From the NCBI GenBank assembly GCA_018266395.1, contig JAFEAM010000021.1, positions 124,001 to 188,000 on the forward strand: 64,000 bases of DNA. The letters run 5' to 3'. The stretch comes from Bacteroidota bacterium (lineage in GTDB: Bacteria > Bacteroidota > Bacteroidia > Cytophagales > Cyclobacteriaceae). The stretch's first letter is position 1; every line of letters begins with the position of its first letter. Below, in pieces: positions 1,725-48,760 of this stretch. The notes beneath the pieces are model-generated. The model saw only the letters and a program-made list of their open reading frames with translations, ran no database searches and had not been told where the DNA came from. The position numbers and the translations under genes are program-made.

Positions 1725-1729
1725 CCCTT

Positions 1730-2365
1730 GTGAGTGCAGTGAGTCACATTTCCTCTGCCTGGTATTCCTTGCTGAAAGGTTTGAGTCTTACCTTCCGGCA
1801 TTTTACGGGAGCCACCCGACGCCGCGCCAGCATGCGCATCATGGATCCTGGCTACTTCACCGGTCAAAAAGGGATTGCCACGATAGAATTCCCGCATGAA
1901 AGGATTCCGGTGCCGGAAACCGGACGATACAAACTCCATAACGAAATGGATGATTGCATTGTCTGCGATAAATGTGCAAAGATTTGCCCGGTCAACTGCA
2001 TATCTATTGAGGCGATTCGTTCAGCGGAGGAATTTGGCAAAACTTCGGATGGCACACCCAAAAGGATTTATGCTTCGCGATTTGACATCGATATGGCCAA
2101 GTGCTGTTTCTGCGGTCTTTGCACAACCGTTTGTCCGACTGAATGTCTGACGATGACCCCGGACTACGACTACTCAACTTTCAATATCATTGATCACCTG
2201 GTCGGGTTTGGCAATATGAGCGAGGAGGATATTGCGCTCAAAAAGAAAGAGTGGGGTGAGCACATTGCACAGAAAACGACAGCTTCCGCCGCAACTGCAG
2301 TTCAGCCGAAGCCGGCACTCCACACAAGTTTCAAGCCCAAAATTCAGCCACCGCAAGGATCATGA
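1730..2365 (+). CDS. nuoI: NADH-quinone oxidoreductase subunit I
   Basis: Peripheral-arm iron-sulfur subunit of respiratory complex I, carrying electrons between the NADH arm and the quinone site at the membrane. Two complete CxxCxxCxxxCP motifs are visible (CIVCDKCAKICP and CCFCGLCTTVCP), which ligate clusters N6a and N6b. A short N-terminal amphipathic segment (AWYSLLKGLSLTFRHF) fits the family. The C-terminal tail is Ala/Pro/Lys-rich and variable. There is no ATG at the expected place: TTG 1712, GTG 1730 and GTG 1739 are all possible. I chose 1730 because of the promoter-like sequence just before it. It overlaps nuoJ by 4 nt (ATGA). It is the first gene of a nuoIJKLMN run, and nuoA-H are not in the window. 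Confidence 0.92.
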   Translation: MSAVSHISSAWYSLLKGLSLTFRHFTGATRRRASMRIMDPGYFTGQKGIATIEFPHERIPVPETGRYKLHNEMDDCIVCDKCAKICPVNCISIEAIRSAEEFGKTSDGTPKRIYASRFDIDMAKCCFCGLCTTVCPTECLTMTPDYDYSTFNIIDHLVGFGNMSEEDIALKKKEWGEHIAQKTTASAATAVQPKPALHTSFKPKIQPPQGS

Positions 2366-2862
2366 GTATAGGACAGGCAGGGCTGTATTTTTTTATGATA
2401 GTCGGAGGCATATCAGCCACGGCAATCCTCTTCACCCGAAATATCTTCCGCGCAGTGTTAATGCTGCTGGCAACCCTGCTTTCCACTGCAGCCATATATA
2501 TTCTTCTGGGTGCCGAATTTGTTGGCATTACCCAGATCCTGGTTTACGCCGGAGGAGTGGTCATCCTGCTGATTTTTGGCATCATGCTCACCTCAAGACT
2601 ATCCAACAAGCCTTTAAATATCAGCAGCCACAATCTCGCCGGCGGTTTGATCGGCAGTCTGAGCTTGCTGGCACTCCTGATCTTTTGCTACCAGGACCTG
2701 AACACGGTTTACCCATCGGGCATCATTACATATCCTGCCATTGGCATCTCTTTATTGACGGACTTCGCAGCTCCCTTTGAATTCTCGGCTATCTTGCTCC
2801 TGATCAGCCTGGCAGGAGCAGCCATAATTGCAGCCACCAATTTCAGAAGACATGAGCCCTGA
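2362..2862 (+). CDS. nuoJ: NADH-quinone oxidoreductase subunit J
   Basis: Small membrane subunit of complex I (166 residues, normal length), with five hydrophobic helices. The conserved third-helix region VGITQILVYAGGVVILLIFGIML matches the family's EAxxQVxVYxGAxMVLxLF segment, where the pi-bulge helix lies. Its ATG overlaps the nuoI stop and its end overlaps the nuoK start, so translation is likely coupled across the operon. It acts in the inner membrane as part of the proton-pumping arm. Confidence 0.92.
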   Translation: MSIGQAGLYFFMIVGGISATAILFTRNIFRAVLMLLATLLSTAAIYILLGAEFVGITQILVYAGGVVILLIFGIMLTSRLSNKPLNISSHNLAGGLIGSLSLLALLIFCYQDLNTVYPSGIITYPAIGISLLTDFAAPFEFSAILLLISLAGAAIIAATNFRRHEP

Positions 2863-3157
2863 TGCCCTTCTTTATTTTGCTGCCTGGATATTCTGTGTGG
2901 GAATTTGCCTGGTAATTGTCAAACGAAATACGCTTCTCATGCTGGTGGGAACCGAGCTCATGCTCAATGCCGCCAACGTCAACCTGGTTTATTTCAATTC
3001 CCGGAGTTCACTGCCGGACGGTGCCATGTTCGCCGTTTTTGTGATTGTTGTTGCCGTGTGCGAAGCAGCTGTTGGGCTTGCCATCATGATGCGGGTCTAT
3101 CATTTCTATCAAACCTCCCTTCCGGACCAAATCAGTGAACTGCGTGAAAGGACTTAA
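2852..3157 (+). CDS. nuoK: NADH-quinone oxidoreductase subunit K
   Basis: Membrane subunit of complex I, 101 residues from the ATG at 2852, with three helices. The two conserved membrane glutamates of the proton path are present (VGTELMLNAANVNLVYF and CEAAVGLAIMMRV). A longer frame from TTG 2828 exists, but its extra eight residues are atypical. The ATG at 2852 overlaps the end of nuoJ by 11 nt, as is usual in this operon. NuoK is homologous to MrpC and lies between NuoJ and the antiporter-like subunits in the complex. Confidence 0.93.
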   Translation: MSPDALLYFAAWIFCVGICLVIVKRNTLLMLVGTELMLNAANVNLVYFNSRSSLPDGAMFAVFVIVVAVCEAAVGLAIMMRVYHFYQTSLPDQISELRERT

Positions 3158-38923: not shown

Positions 38924-40024
38924 CTACACCCGTTCCTCGACTTTGTTCATCACTTTAGTTTGCACCTGAATAGACTCGTGGTGTACGAGCCTCAGCAAAT
39001 CCCTGGTGAAACCCTCGTCGAGACCCATGGCTTTCCCCAGCGATACCCTTGTCTGCACAATCTCTTCCCATCTACCCACTTGCAGAATTGTCACGTTATT
39101 CTCCTTCTTATACTGGCCTATTTTCTCCGATATCTTCATTCGGTTGGCCAGCTTTTGCATGATCTCGTCATCCAGCTGGTCTATCTGCTCGCGAAGAAGC
39201 CCAAGGGTATCTTTGAAAGTTTTGTTGTTGGAAGACGACGTCCGCACGACGAGCCCTTCCACAATCTTTGCCAGGGCAGCCGGCGTTACTTGTTGCTTTG
39301 CATCACTCCAGGCCGCATCCGGGTTTAGGTGACTTTCAATCATCACCCCACTCATATCGAGATCCAGCGCCTTCTGCGACACCATGCTGATCAATTCACG
39401 ATTCCCTGAGATATGACTGGGATCGCATATGACCTCCAGGCCCGGGACGCGCGTTTTCAGTTCAATCGCCAGGTCCCACATCGGCGCATTGCGGAATGGG
39501 CCTTTGTCGAATGATGAGAATCCCCTGTGGATGGCAGCCATTCGCCTGATACCGGCCCGATTCAACCGCTCGATGGCGCCGATCCACAACTCCAGATCCG
39601 GATTCACCGGATTCTTCACCATGACAGGCACATCAACACCACGAAGGGCATCGGCAATTTCCTGCACCGAAAATGGATTCACCGTTGTACGGGCGCCAAC
39701 CCATAATATGTCCACTCCTGCCTTAAGGCAAAGTTCAACATGAGCAGCCGTGGCCACCTCCGTGGTGATGGGCAGTCCTGTTTCTTCCTTGGCCTTGACA
39801 AGCCACTGCAAACCTGGCTCCCCGGCTCCTTCAAACTGCCCCGGCCTGGTTCGCGGTTTCCAGATGCCTGCCCTAAGCGCATGCACTTTTCCTGTTGCCT
39901 TCAGTTGCTTGGCCGTGGTCAGCATTTGTGACTCTGTTTCTGCACTGCATGGACCGCTGATGACCAGGGGGCGATCAACCTTCAAAACTGAACTGATAGA
40001 TTCGAATTGCATATCCTTATTCAT
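38924..40024 (-). CDS. DAHP synthase fused to chorismate mutase
   Basis: 366 residues from ATG 40024. Residues ~1-265 are a class I-beta (KDO8P-like) DAHP synthase with VISGPCSAE, KPRTRPGQFEG, VGARTTVNPFSVQE, KNPVNPD and CDPSHISG. It condenses erythrose-4-phosphate and phosphoenolpyruvate to start aromatic synthesis. Residues ~275-366 are an AroQ-type chorismate mutase (LLREQIDQLDDEIMQKLANR, KISEKIGQYKKEN), which makes prephenate. The same fusion is known in Prevotella. Last gene of the operon, after tyrA (10-nt gap) and before the terminator. Confidence 0.93.
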   Translation of the reverse strand: MNKDMQFESISSVLKVDRPLVISGPCSAETESQMLTTAKQLKATGKVHALRAGIWKPRTRPGQFEGAGEPGLQWLVKAKEETGLPITTEVATAAHVELCLKAGVDILWVGARTTVNPFSVQEIADALRGVDVPVMVKNPVNPDLELWIGAIERLNRAGIRRMAAIHRGFSSFDKGPFRNAPMWDLAIELKTRVPGLEVICDPSHISGNRELISMVSQKALDLDMSGVMIESHLNPDAAWSDAKQQVTPAALAKIVEGLVVRTSSSNNKTFKDTLGLLREQIDQLDDEIMQKLANRMKISEKIGQYKKENNVTILQVGRWEEIVQTRVSLGKAMGLDEGFTRDLLRLVHHESIQVQTKVMNKVEERV

Positions 40025-40034
40025 GGTTAAAATT

Positions 40035-40922
40035 CTACAAAGAGGGCGCCAAAGATCTGGAAGCATGCTGGGCAGTTATGCCTTCCAGCACCGGTCTTAT
40101 TTTATTGGCTTCTGCCAGCATCTTATGAAGTTCCTTGGTATTCTTTTTCATCAGTAAATACTGGAATCGCTGCAAGTGCATGATATACTCCGCGAGCGCC
40201 TGTCCCAGGTATTCAGCATTTTGCTCAAAGATAGGCGCCCACATGTCAGGGGAGCTTTTCGCAAGCCTGACGGTTGAGGCAAATCCCGAACTCGCAAGGT
40301 TGAAGATGTTTTTCTCATCCTTTTCGATGTCAAGAACGGTTTGGCCCAGAAGAAAAGAACTTACGTGCGACAGATGTGAGACATAGGCTACATGCTTGTC
40401 ATGTTCCTCCGGCTCCATAAAGATACTCTTCATTCCCAGCGCCTCGAAAACCTTTTCTGCAAGTCTCATGGAAGAGGGGCTGGACTTATCCTGCTCACAA
40501 ATAATATTGACTTTGTTTCGGAACAATCCCGAAAAAGCGGAATCCGGTCCCGAGTTTTCTGTACCTGCGAGTGGATGGCAGGCAACAAACTGTCCACGGT
40601 TAGGGTGGCCAGCCACCGACCGGCAGATCGCTCCCTTGGTCGATCCCATATCAATCACCACACATTGCGGAGGAGTCACATCCAGAACCTGGGGCAACAA
40701 GGCACTAAGTGTATTGACCGGAATGGCCATTATGACCAGATCTGATTTTGAAAGAGAATCTCCGTCTGATTCATAAGCGTCAACCAGTCCAAGTTTCACT
40801 GCTTCGGCTCCGTTGGCTTCGCTTATGTCCACGCCTGTCAAATGAGTTGCCAAGCCTGATTTCCGGAGGTCGATGGCGGCACTTCCGCCGATAAGCCCCA
40901 AACCTATAATAGTTACTTTCAT
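40035..40922 (-). CDS. tyrA: Prephenate dehydrogenase
   Basis: 295 residues. It oxidises and decarboxylates prephenate to 4-hydroxyphenylpyruvate for tyrosine. The N-terminal Rossmann motif GLGLIGGS, the segment MGSTKGAIC and HPLAGTENSGP are typical, followed by an all-helical dimer domain with HLSHVSSFLLG. There is no fused mutase or ACT domain, because mutase activity lies in the next gene. Its start overlaps the aminotransferase stop by 4 nt. Confidence 0.92.
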   Translation of the reverse strand: MKVTIIGLGLIGGSAAIDLRKSGLATHLTGVDISEANGAEAVKLGLVDAYESDGDSLSKSDLVIMAIPVNTLSALLPQVLDVTPPQCVVIDMGSTKGAICRSVAGHPNRGQFVACHPLAGTENSGPDSAFSGLFRNKVNIICEQDKSSPSSMRLAEKVFEALGMKSIFMEPEEHDKHVAYVSHLSHVSSFLLGQTVLDIEKDEKNIFNLASSGFASTVRLAKSSPDMWAPIFEQNAEYLGQALAEYIMHLQRFQYLLMKKNTKELHKMLAEANKIRPVLEGITAQHASRSLAPSL

Positions 40923-42118
40923 GCGATCTCCCTGGTTACATGGTGATTCTTTGACTTTGATTTGGACCAGGCCTGAATACGCTTCAAGGCTTCCTCCAGT
41001 TTTTCAACAGGTGCACAAAGCGAGATACGCACATGGCTGGAGCCACCAGGCCCGAAAATGAAACCTGGGGTTATGAATACTTTTGTTGAATAGAGAATCT
41101 CATCGAGCCACTTCTCCACATCTACAACGTTCCGGGGTGCCCTTGCCCAGACAAAGAGTCCAGATTGTTTTTCAGCATAAGTGCAGCCGAGTACATCCAG
41201 CAACCTCTTCGCTATCACGCTTCTTCCGCGGTACACGGTATTGAGTTCTTCGAACCATGACTTTTCGCTCCGAAGCGCTTCAATGGCAGCATGCTGAAGA
41301 CCCAGGAACATGCCGGAGTCCATATTGCTTTTCACACGAAGCACAGCATCAATATGTTCCTTGCTGCCGGCAACCCATCCAATTCTCCAGCCCGCCATGT
41401 TGTGCGACTTGCTTAAAGAATTAAGTTCCATGGCAACATCAGAAGAACCGGGAATGGCCAGCATACTCTGGGGATGTTCGTTAAGGATGAGGCTATAAGG
41501 GTTGTCATTTACAATCAGGAACTGGTTCTTTTGAGCCAGTTCAATTAGTGTTGCTAACTCCTGCCTGCTGGCCACGCGGCCCGTAGGCATGTGAGGAAAG
41601 TTCACCCACATCAGCTTGACCTTGCTCAGATCCATCGACCTCAAAGCATCAAGATCGATTCCCCAGTCAAGATCTTCCTTCAATACATAAGTCCGGATTT
41701 TGGCTCCGGCCAGCCTGGCCACAGCTGCATAGGTTGGATAGCCGGGATCGGGAATCAAAACTTCCTCCCCTTCGTTGACAAATGCCATTGTGATGTGAAA
41801 GATGCCCTCCTTCGATCCCATGAGTGGAAGGATCTCCCTTTCCGGGTCAGGATGTACGCCGTAGGTCCTTTCGTAGAAGGCGCCAATGGCCTGTCGCAGG
41901 GCTGGAATGCCCTTGTAGTTCTGATATCCGTGATGACCGGGATTACGCGCCGAGGTTGTGAGGGCCTCGACTGTTGAATGAGACGGTGATAAATCCGGGC
42001 TGCCAATGCCCAGGTTGATAACCGGCAATTCCTTGGAGTCAAGGCTGCGCACTTCAGCCAGTTTTCTGCTGAAGTAGTATTCTTCGACGTCGGCTATGCG
42101 TTGAGCTGTCTGAATCAT
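40919..42118 (-). CDS. PLP aminotransferase, class I/II (probable aromatic or DAP-type)
   Basis: 399 residues, fold-type I. The Schiff-base lysine is Lys237 in SLSKSHNMAGWRIGW, and NLGIGSPDLSPS, YQNYKGIPALRQAI and NDNPYSLI fit the family. Sequence alone leaves open whether it is an LL-diaminopimelate-type enzyme or an aromatic transaminase. Position between pheA and tyrA argues for the last step of Phe and Tyr synthesis. It starts 3 nt after pheA. No transmembrane or regulatory domain is seen. Confidence 0.88.
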   Translation of the reverse strand: MIQTAQRIADVEEYYFSRKLAEVRSLDSKELPVINLGIGSPDLSPSHSTVEALTTSARNPGHHGYQNYKGIPALRQAIGAFYERTYGVHPDPEREILPLMGSKEGIFHITMAFVNEGEEVLIPDPGYPTYAAVARLAGAKIRTYVLKEDLDWGIDLDALRSMDLSKVKLMWVNFPHMPTGRVASRQELATLIELAQKNQFLIVNDNPYSLILNEHPQSMLAIPGSSDVAMELNSLSKSHNMAGWRIGWVAGSKEHIDAVLRVKSNMDSGMFLGLQHAAIEALRSEKSWFEELNTVYRGRSVIAKRLLDVLGCTYAEKQSGLFVWARAPRNVVDVEKWLDEILYSTKVFITPGFIFGPGGSSHVRISLCAPVEKLEEALKRIQAWSKSKSKNHHVTREIA

Positions 42119-42121
42119 TTG

Positions 42122-43003
42122 TTAAAATTTGATCTCTGCTTTCTTGTATTCGCCCAGTATGTTGAGGTTGCGTGTTTGACGCAGCACCAGCTGCAGGGCT
42201 GACTCGTAGTTCTTCCTTTTCTTCCACTCCAGGTCTACGTGAATGGAATATTCGCGCGGTTTCCCGATTATAGGAATGGATTGGATCTTGGTCAGGTTAA
42301 TGCTGTTTTCCTTGAATGACATCAATACATCTGCCAGGCTTCCGGCTTCATTGGCAACCTCGAAGGAAAGGGACGCTTTGTTGCTGTCGGTACCATTGGT
42401 TGCCTTCTTGGTGAGGATGAGAAATCGCGTAAAATTCTTCTTGTTGGTTTCAATGCGCTTTTCAATGATCTCCAATCCAAACTTGCGAGCCGCGTGTTCA
42501 TTGGCAATTGCACCGGTGTCACACAGCCTTAGGTCTTTGATTTTCTTTGCAGACAAAGCCGTGTCATCACTTTCCTTGATCTCCACTCCTGACAGCCTCT
42601 GCAGAAAATCACTGCACTGACGGATGGCCATGGGATGAGATTCTATGCTTTTCAAGTCTTTCATGGTCACCCCCGGCAATACCATCAGGTGAAGGTGAAT
42701 GGGCAGATATAACTCTCCCACAATGGCAAAATGATATTCTTGAAGAAGGAAATAGTTCGGAAGGATGCTCCCTGCGATGGAATTTTCAATGGCCATGACC
42801 GCATAATCGGCCCGGTCATGTTTCAGCGTTTCACAGAGACTGTGGAATGTAAGGCATTCAATGATTTCCAGTTGCGACTGAAAGTAGGTGAGCGCCGCCA
42901 CTTCATGGAAACTGGTGGCAATGCCCTGTATGGCTACCCTGAGTTTCTTTCGTGTTGCCGTCTTGCCTGTATGGTTTGTCTTCTGTGCCTTTGTCATTGT
43001 CAT
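42122..43003 (-). CDS. pheA: Prephenate dehydratase with C-terminal ACT domain
   Basis: 293 residues. It converts prephenate to phenylpyruvate. The catalytic domain shows AIENSIAGSILPNY, DTGAIANEHAARKFGLEI and the TRF motif in NFTRFLIL. A C-terminal ACT domain (about 208-290) should bind phenylalanine, but the usual ESRP motif reads QSIP and GALV reads GSLA, so feedback binding may differ. The ATG at 43003 immediately follows the U-run of the leader terminator, and a second ATG lies at 42997. First structural gene of the Phe/Tyr operon. Confidence 0.93.
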   Translation of the reverse strand: MTMTKAQKTNHTGKTATRKKLRVAIQGIATSFHEVAALTYFQSQLEIIECLTFHSLCETLKHDRADYAVMAIENSIAGSILPNYFLLQEYHFAIVGELYLPIHLHLMVLPGVTMKDLKSIESHPMAIRQCSDFLQRLSGVEIKESDDTALSAKKIKDLRLCDTGAIANEHAARKFGLEIIEKRIETNKKNFTRFLILTKKATNGTDSNKASLSFEVANEAGSLADVLMSFKENSINLTKIQSIPIIGKPREYSIHVDLEWKKRKNYESALQLVLRQTRNLNILGEYKKAEIKF

Positions 43004-43038
43004 TAAAAAGAAGAGTCCCGCTTTTTTGGCGGGACTCT
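43004..43038 (-). terminator. Attenuator terminator in the pheA leader
   Basis: On the reverse strand AGAGTCCCGC (43038-43029), loop CAAAAAA, GCGGGACTCT (43021-43012), then TTCTTTTT (43011-43004), directly abutting the pheA ATG. Stem of 10 bp with a U-rich tract, the form of an intrinsic terminator. Placed between a Phe/Tyr-rich leader peptide and the first gene, it is read as an attenuator. Confidence 0.85.
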
Positions 43039-43088
43039 GTTTGTTTTTCGTTTTGTGTTGCTACAAAATGCTATCCTTCAAGTCCCGC
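43029..43088 (-). promoter_or_regulatory. Antiterminator pairing of the pheA leader
   Basis: GCGGGACT (43088-43081, codons 17-19 of the leader peptide) is the perfect complement of AGTCCCGC (43036-43029), the main part of the terminator 5' arm. Adding a G-U pair makes 9 bp. A ribosome stalled on the Phe/Tyr codons would leave it free to pair and block the terminator. A ribosome reaching the stop codon at 43073-43071 would mask it. Confidence 0.75.
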
Positions 43089-43136
43089 TGAGGTTTGAAA
43101 AAAATAATAGTAAAAGTAAAATCGCCAGGTCTTCAT
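43071..43136 (-). CDS. Phe/Tyr leader peptide of the aromatic operon
   Basis: 21 codons from ATG 43136 to TAG 43071. Codons 6-13 encode FYFYYYFF, eight consecutive Phe/Tyr codons, after a Trp at codon 4. The peptide ends QTSAGLEG. It is too short for gene finders. It precedes a terminator and the operon that makes exactly these two amino acids, so it functions as the sensor of charged tRNA-Phe and tRNA-Tyr. Known analogues are pheL and hisL of enterobacteria. No homology search was done. Confidence 0.85.
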   Translation of the reverse strand: MKTWRFYFYYYFFQTSAGLEG

Positions 43137-43243
43137 GACTTTATAGCAGCAGCGAAGAAAGGCCAAAAAAGCGAAAACAACAACACTTCGCAGAATATTT
43201 GTACGGAATTCCTGACAAACTAACTACTGTTAGTGGGTTCTGA

Positions 43244-43274
43244 TTGATGGTCATGGGCCAATCCCATACATTTG
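43244..43274 (+). promoter_or_regulatory. Promoter of the small lipoprotein gene
   Basis: TTG (43244-43246), a 20-nt spacer and TACATTTG (43267-43274), a perfect TAnnTTTG. The predicted start is about 9 nt before the ATG at 43290. This is the best-formed Bacteroidota promoter I see in the window. Confidence 0.65.
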
Positions 43275-43289
43275 ACACAAACAAAGTAT

Positions 43290-43718
43290 ATGAACAGATT
43301 ATTACTTGTACTTGTACTCGTCCTGTTTGCCATGATTGCCTGCGGAAAGAAGCAACAGAACGATACAAAAGTCACCTCACTTCCAGAGGATCCAAATGCA
43401 GCCCTTTATGATGAACTGATGGAAATGCATGATCAGGTCATGCTGCGGTCCGATGAGCTTTACAAACTGAAACAGGAGCTGTTAAAGGATATCGCTTCTC
43501 ACCCGGATAAGAAACAGAAAGTAGACAGTGTGGTCTTGAAACTGGATTCAGCCAGCAACGCCATGATGGACTGGATGCATCATTTTGCGATGCCCGACAG
43601 CGCTGATGCAGAAGGCAAAAGGGTTTATCTGGAAAATGAGATGGAGAAAATGAAGAAAATCCGTGACATGACAGATGAATCTCTCGGTTTGGCCAGGCCC
43701 CTGTTGGAAAAGAAATAA
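43290..43718 (+). CDS. Small coiled-coil lipoprotein of unknown function
   Basis: 142 residues from ATG 43290. The lipoprotein signal NRLLLVLVLVLFAMIACGKK has a lipobox with Cys at residue 19, so it is lipidated and lies in the periplasm or outer membrane. The mature part is highly charged and helical (ELMEMHDQVMLRSDELYKLK, ENEMEKMKKIRDMTDE) and likely forms a coiled coil. I do not recognise a family. It is divergent from the pheA leader and converges on the SET gene with 4 nt between. Confidence 0.78.
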   Translation: MNRLLLVLVLVLFAMIACGKKQQNDTKVTSLPEDPNAALYDELMEMHDQVMLRSDELYKLKQELLKDIASHPDKKQKVDSVVLKLDSASNAMMDWMHHFAMPDSADAEGKRVYLENEMEKMKKIRDMTDESLGLARPLLEKK

Positions 43719-48602: not shown

Positions 48603-48613
48603 GGCAGGCCTAT

Positions 48614-48657
48614 TAAAAACGAATCGCCCTGTCAGAATCATGATTTCTGACAGGGCG
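48614..48657 (-). terminator. Terminator-like hairpin in the leuC leader
   Basis: Reverse-strand CGCCCTGTCAGAA (48657-48645) pairs over 13 bp with TTCTGACAGGGCG (48637-48625), 7-nt loop, followed by ATTCGTTTTTAAT. It lies about 35 nt before the leuC start. By analogy with pheA and ilvE it may be an attenuator. Upstream, codons ATC CTC ATC TTC GTA ACC GCA GGA (48693-48670) resemble a leader peptide, but no start codon is in frame. Confidence 0.6.
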
Positions 48658-48760
48658 GATCGGTCTTTTTCCTGCGGTTACGAAGATGAGGATTTTTGAT
48701 TTACACCATCACGTTCCCCGCCGAAAATATTTTATCACTTACAAGTGTTAGTTCAGCAAA

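Follow-up and report, generated by a model that had tools for sequence, protein, structure and literature searches.

The analysis of the region upstream of pheA in the window (the whole stretch of 64,000 nucleotides considered here) indicates that a classical ribosome-mediated transcription attenuator very probably controls the operon formed by pheA, an aminotransferase gene, tyrA and a gene for DAHP synthase/chorismate mutase. Indeed, the region combines a short open reading frame in which codons for the amino acids made by the operon follow one another, a predicted intrinsic terminator lying between this leader and the first gene, and an antiterminator that excludes the terminator and that, from its pairing, covariation and position, appears to be placed for release by stalling at the control codons. 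Attenuation had already been proposed in a first-pass annotation of this DNA, and the proposal is strengthened by the conservation of leader and terminator and by the covarying antiterminator, terminator and protector helices described below. The coordinates of all the elements are reported in Table 1.

Table 1. Elements of the predicted attenuator, the downstream operon and the upstream dyad (positions in the window)
Feature	Position	Strand	Basis
Dyad CTAACnnnnGTTAG, operator-like, 83 nt upstream of the leader ATG	43220..43233	.	conserved in the genus
Leader peptide ORF, 21 codons + TAG, MKTWRFYFYYYFFQTSAGLEG	43071..43136	-	direct reading; equivalent ORF at 21/21 genus loci (one frameshifted)
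Control codons F-Y-F-Y-Y-Y-F-F, eight consecutive	43098..43121	-	direct reading
Local protector hairpin: 43102-43095 with 43081-43074, plus 43093-43091 with 43086-43084	43074..43102	-	fold
Segment B, antiterminator 5' arm, codons 17-19, GCGGGACTT	43080..43088	-	B:D covaries across relatives
Small A/U-rich hairpin (TTTTGT...ACAAAA), between leader stop and D	43051..43068	-	fold prediction only
Segment D, antiterminator 3' arm and terminator 5' arm, AGAGTCCCGC	43029..43038	-	direct reading, covariation
Segment E, terminator 3' arm, GCGGGACTCT	43012..43021	-	direct reading, covariation
Terminator U-rich tail TCTTTTT, then A, then the first pheA ATG	43005..43011	-	direct reading
pheA, prephenate dehydratase (PDT, PF00800); candidate starts are the in-frame ATGs at 43003 or 42997	42122..43003	-	
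Class I/II aminotransferase gene (PF00155)	40919..42118	-	
tyrA, prephenate dehydrogenase (PF02153, PF20463)	40035..40922	-	
DAHP synthase + chorismate mutase gene (PF00793, PF01817)	38924..40066	-	

The strands involved follow each other along the RNA in the order A (first codons), B, C (end of the leader), D and E; D pairs with E in the terminator and with B in the antiterminator, whereas A and C pair at the base of a protector hairpin. Direct reading confirmed the reverse frame of 21 codons with its FYFYYYFF run, as well as the 10-bp terminator running up to the pheA start, the U-rich tail ending at 43005 and the first in-frame ATG lying at 43003. The perfect 8-nt complementarity between a leader segment and the terminator 5' arm was also recovered, representing 8 of the 9 pairs that we found between B (43088-43080) and 43037-43029, the last of which is a G-U. 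As predicted from the sequence, the arms D and E enclose a 7-nt loop, and the two competing helices are balanced in the window (-18.5 kcal/mol for B:D vs -18.1 for D:E). These observations are exact and beyond chance. In all six frames of the 64 kb, the FYFYYYFF run is the sole stretch with at least five successive Phe/Tyr codons, runs of at least six were never obtained in 60 Markov-simulated windows, and shuffling the leader tail 200 times never reached the leader-to-terminator pairing of the window's locus (L001). The 133 nt folded alone gave z = -2.19, with 6 of 200 shuffles folding equally well or better.

The Pfam families of the four downstream genes are those of Phe/Tyr synthesis, as the first-pass annotation had implied, and the pathway matches the control codons. 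Upstream, the closest gene (43272-43718) points away from the leader, and no minus-strand ORF of at least 80 aa ends between the leader and 43548, so that the hairpin is unlikely to be the terminator of an upstream gene. Separately, we observed that the hairpin at 43012-43038 is terminator-like on the plus strand too, and that no obvious plus-strand gene ends there.

In the mechanism that we propose, a ribosome would trail the RNA polymerase through the 21-codon leader. With both charged tRNA-Phe and charged tRNA-Tyr plentiful, it would reach the stop codon and cover B, D would pair with E, and transcription would terminate before pheA. With either tRNA in short supply, the ribosome would stall within FYFYYYFF, the free B would pair with D, E would be left without a partner and the operon would be read. 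In most relatives, the protector (A with B and C) would hold B as long as the leader carries no ribosome, and termination should therefore be the default state. We infer the transcription start, the termination, the stalling, the response to Phe and Tyr and the two-amino-acid OR logic from the arrangement of these elements.

The anatomy of the region is conserved within the genus. A pheA protein search of 39 genomes gave a match in 21 of the 25 genomes of the genus (the window's own included), and at all of these 21 loci an FY-rich leader and a terminator precede pheA. This agrees with the expectation, put forward in the first-pass annotation, that relatives should have conserved Phe/Tyr codons and covarying stems. 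Twenty of the leaders are intact (e.g., MNTQRFYFSFYFYPALPGLDRESLC and MNRNRFYFFYFFYQTRVGLEGESVC); that of L016 carries a one-base frameshift within the run, probably a sequence error, since its pheA also has stops. Most of the genus leaders share an RFYF motif, and a Trp codon occurs within the run in five of the 21 (L010, L012, L013, L017 and L019).

The distance from the end of the hairpin to the start of the pheA match is not kept in the genus, ranging from 9 to 78 nt. This speaks against the idea that the hairpin acts mainly on translation, shutting off pheA initiation except when the ribosome on the leader stalls or reinitiates. It is true that the window's hairpin tail runs up to the first ATG and that reinitiation after leader ORFs is hypothesised in the available part of PMC4833913; however, 67 nt separate the leader stop from the first pheA ATG in the window, vs the Bacteroidetes peak of 11-14 bp given in the same part of that paper, and we regard a mainly translational role as very unlikely.

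A second conserved element of the genus is the dyad CTAACnnnnGTTAG, which occurs with at most one mismatch at 20 of the 21 loci (15 of them exact), 68-88 nt before the leader ATG; the shuffled control gave a mean of 0.15 and a highest value of 2, and only three exact sites exist genome-wide. The dyad likely binds a protein or belongs to the promoter, and it might represent a second layer of control. Its recurrence in a roughly constant place might even suggest that a DNA-binding regulator acting there is the only control of the operon, the leader being decorative, but this is highly improbable, since the parts of the attenuator are kept and covary in other families, and since a second control layer is compatible with the first one.

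Outside the genus, we took as a named set the best 80 of at least 591 confirmed pheA loci, a choice that makes the set lean towards close relatives; it consists mostly of Cyclobacteriaceae-type MAGs and of Sphingobacteriaceae (Pedobacter, Mucilaginibacter, Sphingobacterium). Also in this wider set the expectation held for the leader, which is present at 74 of the 80 loci; the covariation of the antiterminator, terminator and protector pairings among relatives is described below. Seventy of these leaders start with ATG and were found with a fixed detector, and four, with GTG or TTG starts, were recognised by eye; no leader was detected at the remaining six loci of the best 80 (L125, L133 and L137-L140). 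A terminator was detected in 68 of the 70 leaders found by the detector, which in control runs responded to 6 of 80 reverse complements and to none of 80 stretches taken from within the gene. Phe and Tyr codons are nearly equally represented in the 70 leaders (281 vs 273, with at least two of each in every leader), which is consistent with either amino acid controlling an operon that makes them both.

A broader survey found pheA in 88 of 99 genomes (51 of 59 genera). For 49 genera, not counting the window's own and g16, we read a single genome each. The leader was detected in 13 of them, that is, in 11 of the 13 genera of the window's class and in 2 of the 36 outside it (3 of 49 when reverse complements were read as a control), and no leader was detected in 36 of the 49, including two of the window's class. 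The two loci outside the class (L180 and L195) have a pheA scoring like those of the window's class (1.8e-109 and 3.7e-123), which suggests that operon and leader may have been transferred together. In the outgroup L022 (the same region as L160), the leader lies 315 nt before the pheA match.

We also searched with a covariance model, R1, built from 20 genus leaders with a structure made of A:C and D:E and not including B:D; its matches, as well as the alignment A5 derived from it, therefore lean towards these two helices. Run on 395 genomes of the phylum with filters under which weak matches are lost, R1 gave matches in 29 at E <= 0.001. Among the 30 R1 loci read, 14 have pheA downstream (the window's own included) and three a DAHP synthase gene; 13 have no match to pheA, tyrA or DAHP synthase, L040 giving a weak aminotransferase match only, and these 13 include Ile/Thr leaders, one Met-rich leader and probable chance terminators. 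FY-rich leaders precede DAHP synthase rather than pheA at L041, L057 (1501-1643) and L035 (1501-1640). L057 belongs to genome G113 of the sister genus g17, in which no leader was detected at pheA (L159). As a side observation, L079, on a contig labelled as a 'Legionellaceae bacterium' MAG, carries a Bacteroidota-like pheA with an FY leader; this contig is probably misbinned.

Covariation was analysed for the three helices. Permutation tests for B:D and A:C were run on 23 chosen representatives of 36 loci, L016 being left out of these tests and of the alignments A2 and A5, and L008, nearly identical to L006, being left out of A5. The sum of B:D pairing within each locus was 451.5 vs a permuted mean of 385.2 (SD 13.2), a value that none of 5000 permutations equalled, and the 12 loci outside the genus alone were matched by 5 of 5000; in 4 of the 36 loci (L004, L035, L038 and L049), B:D was no better than in shuffles (p > 0.05). 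For A:C, the own-locus sum was -246.7 vs -187.2 in permutations (reached in none of 5000 overall and in 2 of 5000 for the loci outside the genus), with a weak signal within the genus alone (176 of 5000). The 68 named loci gave -629.0 vs -442.8 (SD 18.2; 0 of 3000). Taken individually, A:C was non-significant in 14 of the 36 loci and in 35 of the 68 named ones, the other 33 being significant.

As for compensatory changes, RNAalifold gave only 7 pairs on the alignment A2, in which MAFFT misplaced D in several rows, and the model-based alignment A5 was used instead; it contains 35 loci, namely 19 of the 21 of the genus, three from the R1 search and 13 of the first 18 named ones. Over 35 sequences drawn from the genus and from the named loci closest to it, A:C together with B:D showed 53 two-sided changed cells vs 21.1 in shuffled data, and A:C together with D:E showed 74 vs 22.4. 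The alignment A6, made of 35 named Sphingobacteriaceae-type loci, gave 27 vs 13.0, all in A:C; the number of pairs with two-sided change was 6 vs 4.5 in this set, a value reached by 90 of 500 shuffles. B:D never varies on both sides in the Sphingobacteriaceae-type loci, which are thus uninformative for this helix.

The same data bear on the possibility that what is conserved is a small functional FY-rich peptide, the terminator being unrelated to it. The RFYF motif shared by most genus leaders might be read in this sense; however, length, C-terminus and stop position of the peptide vary, base pairing is kept by compensatory change, and the matching of B to D holds across families in which the peptides differ, and we consider this explanation highly improbable.

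In 42 of the 68 loci, the last base of B is also the first base of the stop codon, so that a terminating ribosome would sit over B. Moreover, when only the leader RNA preceding D was folded, half or more of B was paired in 63 of the 68 loci. Covariation and folding before D together point to an RNA with the three classical competing structures, the third of which, the protector hairpin, had been missed by the first-pass annotation and is strong in most relatives, as well as in E. coli pheA. The window is different in this respect. Its local hairpin joins the final control codons to the leader tail and thereby keeps part of B paired, and its fold before D amounts to -7.9 kcal/mol in total vs -13.9 to -25.4 in 14 relatives. 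The A:C base helix is absent in the window (-3.5 kcal/mol, with 98.5% of shuffles equal or better; p = 0.985), as well as in L020, L032, L036 and L043; in the congener L032, where A:C is -5.8 kcal/mol (p = 0.505), the leader likewise stops early. Given this weak protector, basal read-through in the window may be higher, that is, the switch may work with a leakier default.

The relation between A:C and B:D admits a different interpretation, in which the two helices form together as an H-type pseudoknot. In such a case, A:C would stack on B:D throughout the class, an untranslated or stalled leader would be in the ON state, and only full translation, with both Phe and Tyr supplied, would lead to termination. 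The order A-B-C-D does make the helices cross; C starts 0-2 nt past B in 48 of the 68 loci (shuffled-C mean 14.8, highest 23), so that stacking is possible, and in many Sphingobacteriaceae the 3' strand of A:C adjoins B with no gap. A:C overlaps with B in 29 of the 68 loci vs 31.9 in shuffles, a result that favours neither interpretation. A rough energy sum for the pseudoknot has a median of -24.9, near that of A:C plus the terminator (-4.8 and -20.3), but it relies on a borrowed penalty. Some sort of precedent would exist in the LEU element of Actinobacteria, for which the available text of PMC1262725 proposes a pseudoknot in the leader-peptide region. Nevertheless, in most loci at least half of B is paired before D exists, and A:C therefore looks like a part of the protector and not like a partner of B:D; furthermore, E. 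coli pheA has the same segment order and is classical, and the window itself lacks A:C. On the basis of the E. coli order and of the pairing of B before D, the pseudoknot was demoted from main reading to alternative, and both as a general model and as a version valid for the whole class we judge it improbable.

The classical attenuator thus has its closest known counterpart in the pheL-pheA region of E. coli (RF01859, Phe_leader). Once fetched and folded, this sequence displayed the same order of control codons, antiterminator arm, 3' strand of the protector and terminator arms, with a long protector that encloses and partly pairs the antiterminator arm, and with a terminator placed before pheA, as here. 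Differences exist as well: in the window the antiterminator arm is part of the leader ORF, and in E. coli it comes directly after the leader stop; the control codons of pheL are for Phe and not for Tyr, whereas the window's leader mixes both; and the window's operon, unlike E. coli pheA, also holds tyrA and DAHP synthase. In E. coli, regulation by Tyr is handled by TyrR. The Thr leader (RF00506), whose control amino acids are Thr and Ile, likewise couples a single leader to the control by more than one amino acid, with other amino acids and another operon. The trp attenuator of E. coli (RF00513) follows the same protector/antiterminator/terminator logic according to the available part of PMC1183508, with other control codons and in another branch of the pathway.

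No Rfam family reaches its cut-off at the leader site of the window, and annotation pipelines relying on Rfam would therefore overlook the attenuator. For RF01859, the gathering cut-off of 55 bits was missed by both the window (27.5) and L006 (38.9), so that the element would work like the Phe_leader family, yet cannot be assigned to it by the rule of Rfam; for the Trp_leader family RF00513, the window scored 18.1 bits vs a cut-off of 41. The family RF04180 (BTnc231) was rejected as a candidate, L006 scoring 31.1 bits vs a cut-off of 80.4 and none of 12 family loci matching proteins of the aromatic operon.

Regarding Bacteroidota, our literature search found no experimental study of leader attenuation in this phylum. 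The abstract of Vitreschak et al. 2004 (FEMS Microbiol Lett 234:357) reportedly mentions attenuators in Bacteroidetes/Chlorobi. In the accessible part of PMC7366714, which describes BTnc231 as a Northern-validated Bacteroides sRNA, only sORFs reminiscent of leader peptides are reported for Bacteroides thetaiotaomicron. Signs of leader-peptide attenuation before amino-acid operons of Flavobacterium psychrophilum are presented as predictions in the sections of PMC9723704 at hand, together with a structured pheA 5' element that is conserved across Flavobacteriaceae genera and has no Rfam match. As here, this is a structured region before pheA in Bacteroidota; the text compared gives neither the codons nor the pairings of that element, nor a Cytophagales copy. 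Hence, the suggestion of the first-pass annotation that the attenuator could be new in Bacteroidota stands in part: it is new as a described member, but predictions were already contained in PMC9723704, as far as the text compared goes. It is well supported that the attenuator is classical in mechanism, widely kept in the window's class and not new as a kind. Its presence in most of the surveyed genera of the class would offer a clean test system in named strains (Pedobacter, Mucilaginibacter, Sphingobacterium), and it would show a single leader sensing two amino acids for a whole branch of the pathway.

Other leader-like regions were observed as well. In the window, a strong hairpin with a T-run lies at 48612-48658, just upstream of the leuC operon; no leucine-rich leader was obvious there by eye, and the hairpin may simply end the upstream gene. 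Ile/Thr-rich leaders with terminators are found at L045 and L047 (about 1501-1636 in both) and at L040; those of L045 and L047 give sub-threshold matches to the Rfam Thr_leader, and the gene directly after the L047 leader looks like thrA/aspartokinase. Lastly, L058 bears a Met-rich leader (...MAMRMMMRMKIFVCEGM) at 1501-1644, with a terminator, directly before a gene (1729-3063) that looks like an O-acetylhomoserine sulfhydrylase, and it is possible that this region represents a methionine attenuator in Bacteroidota.
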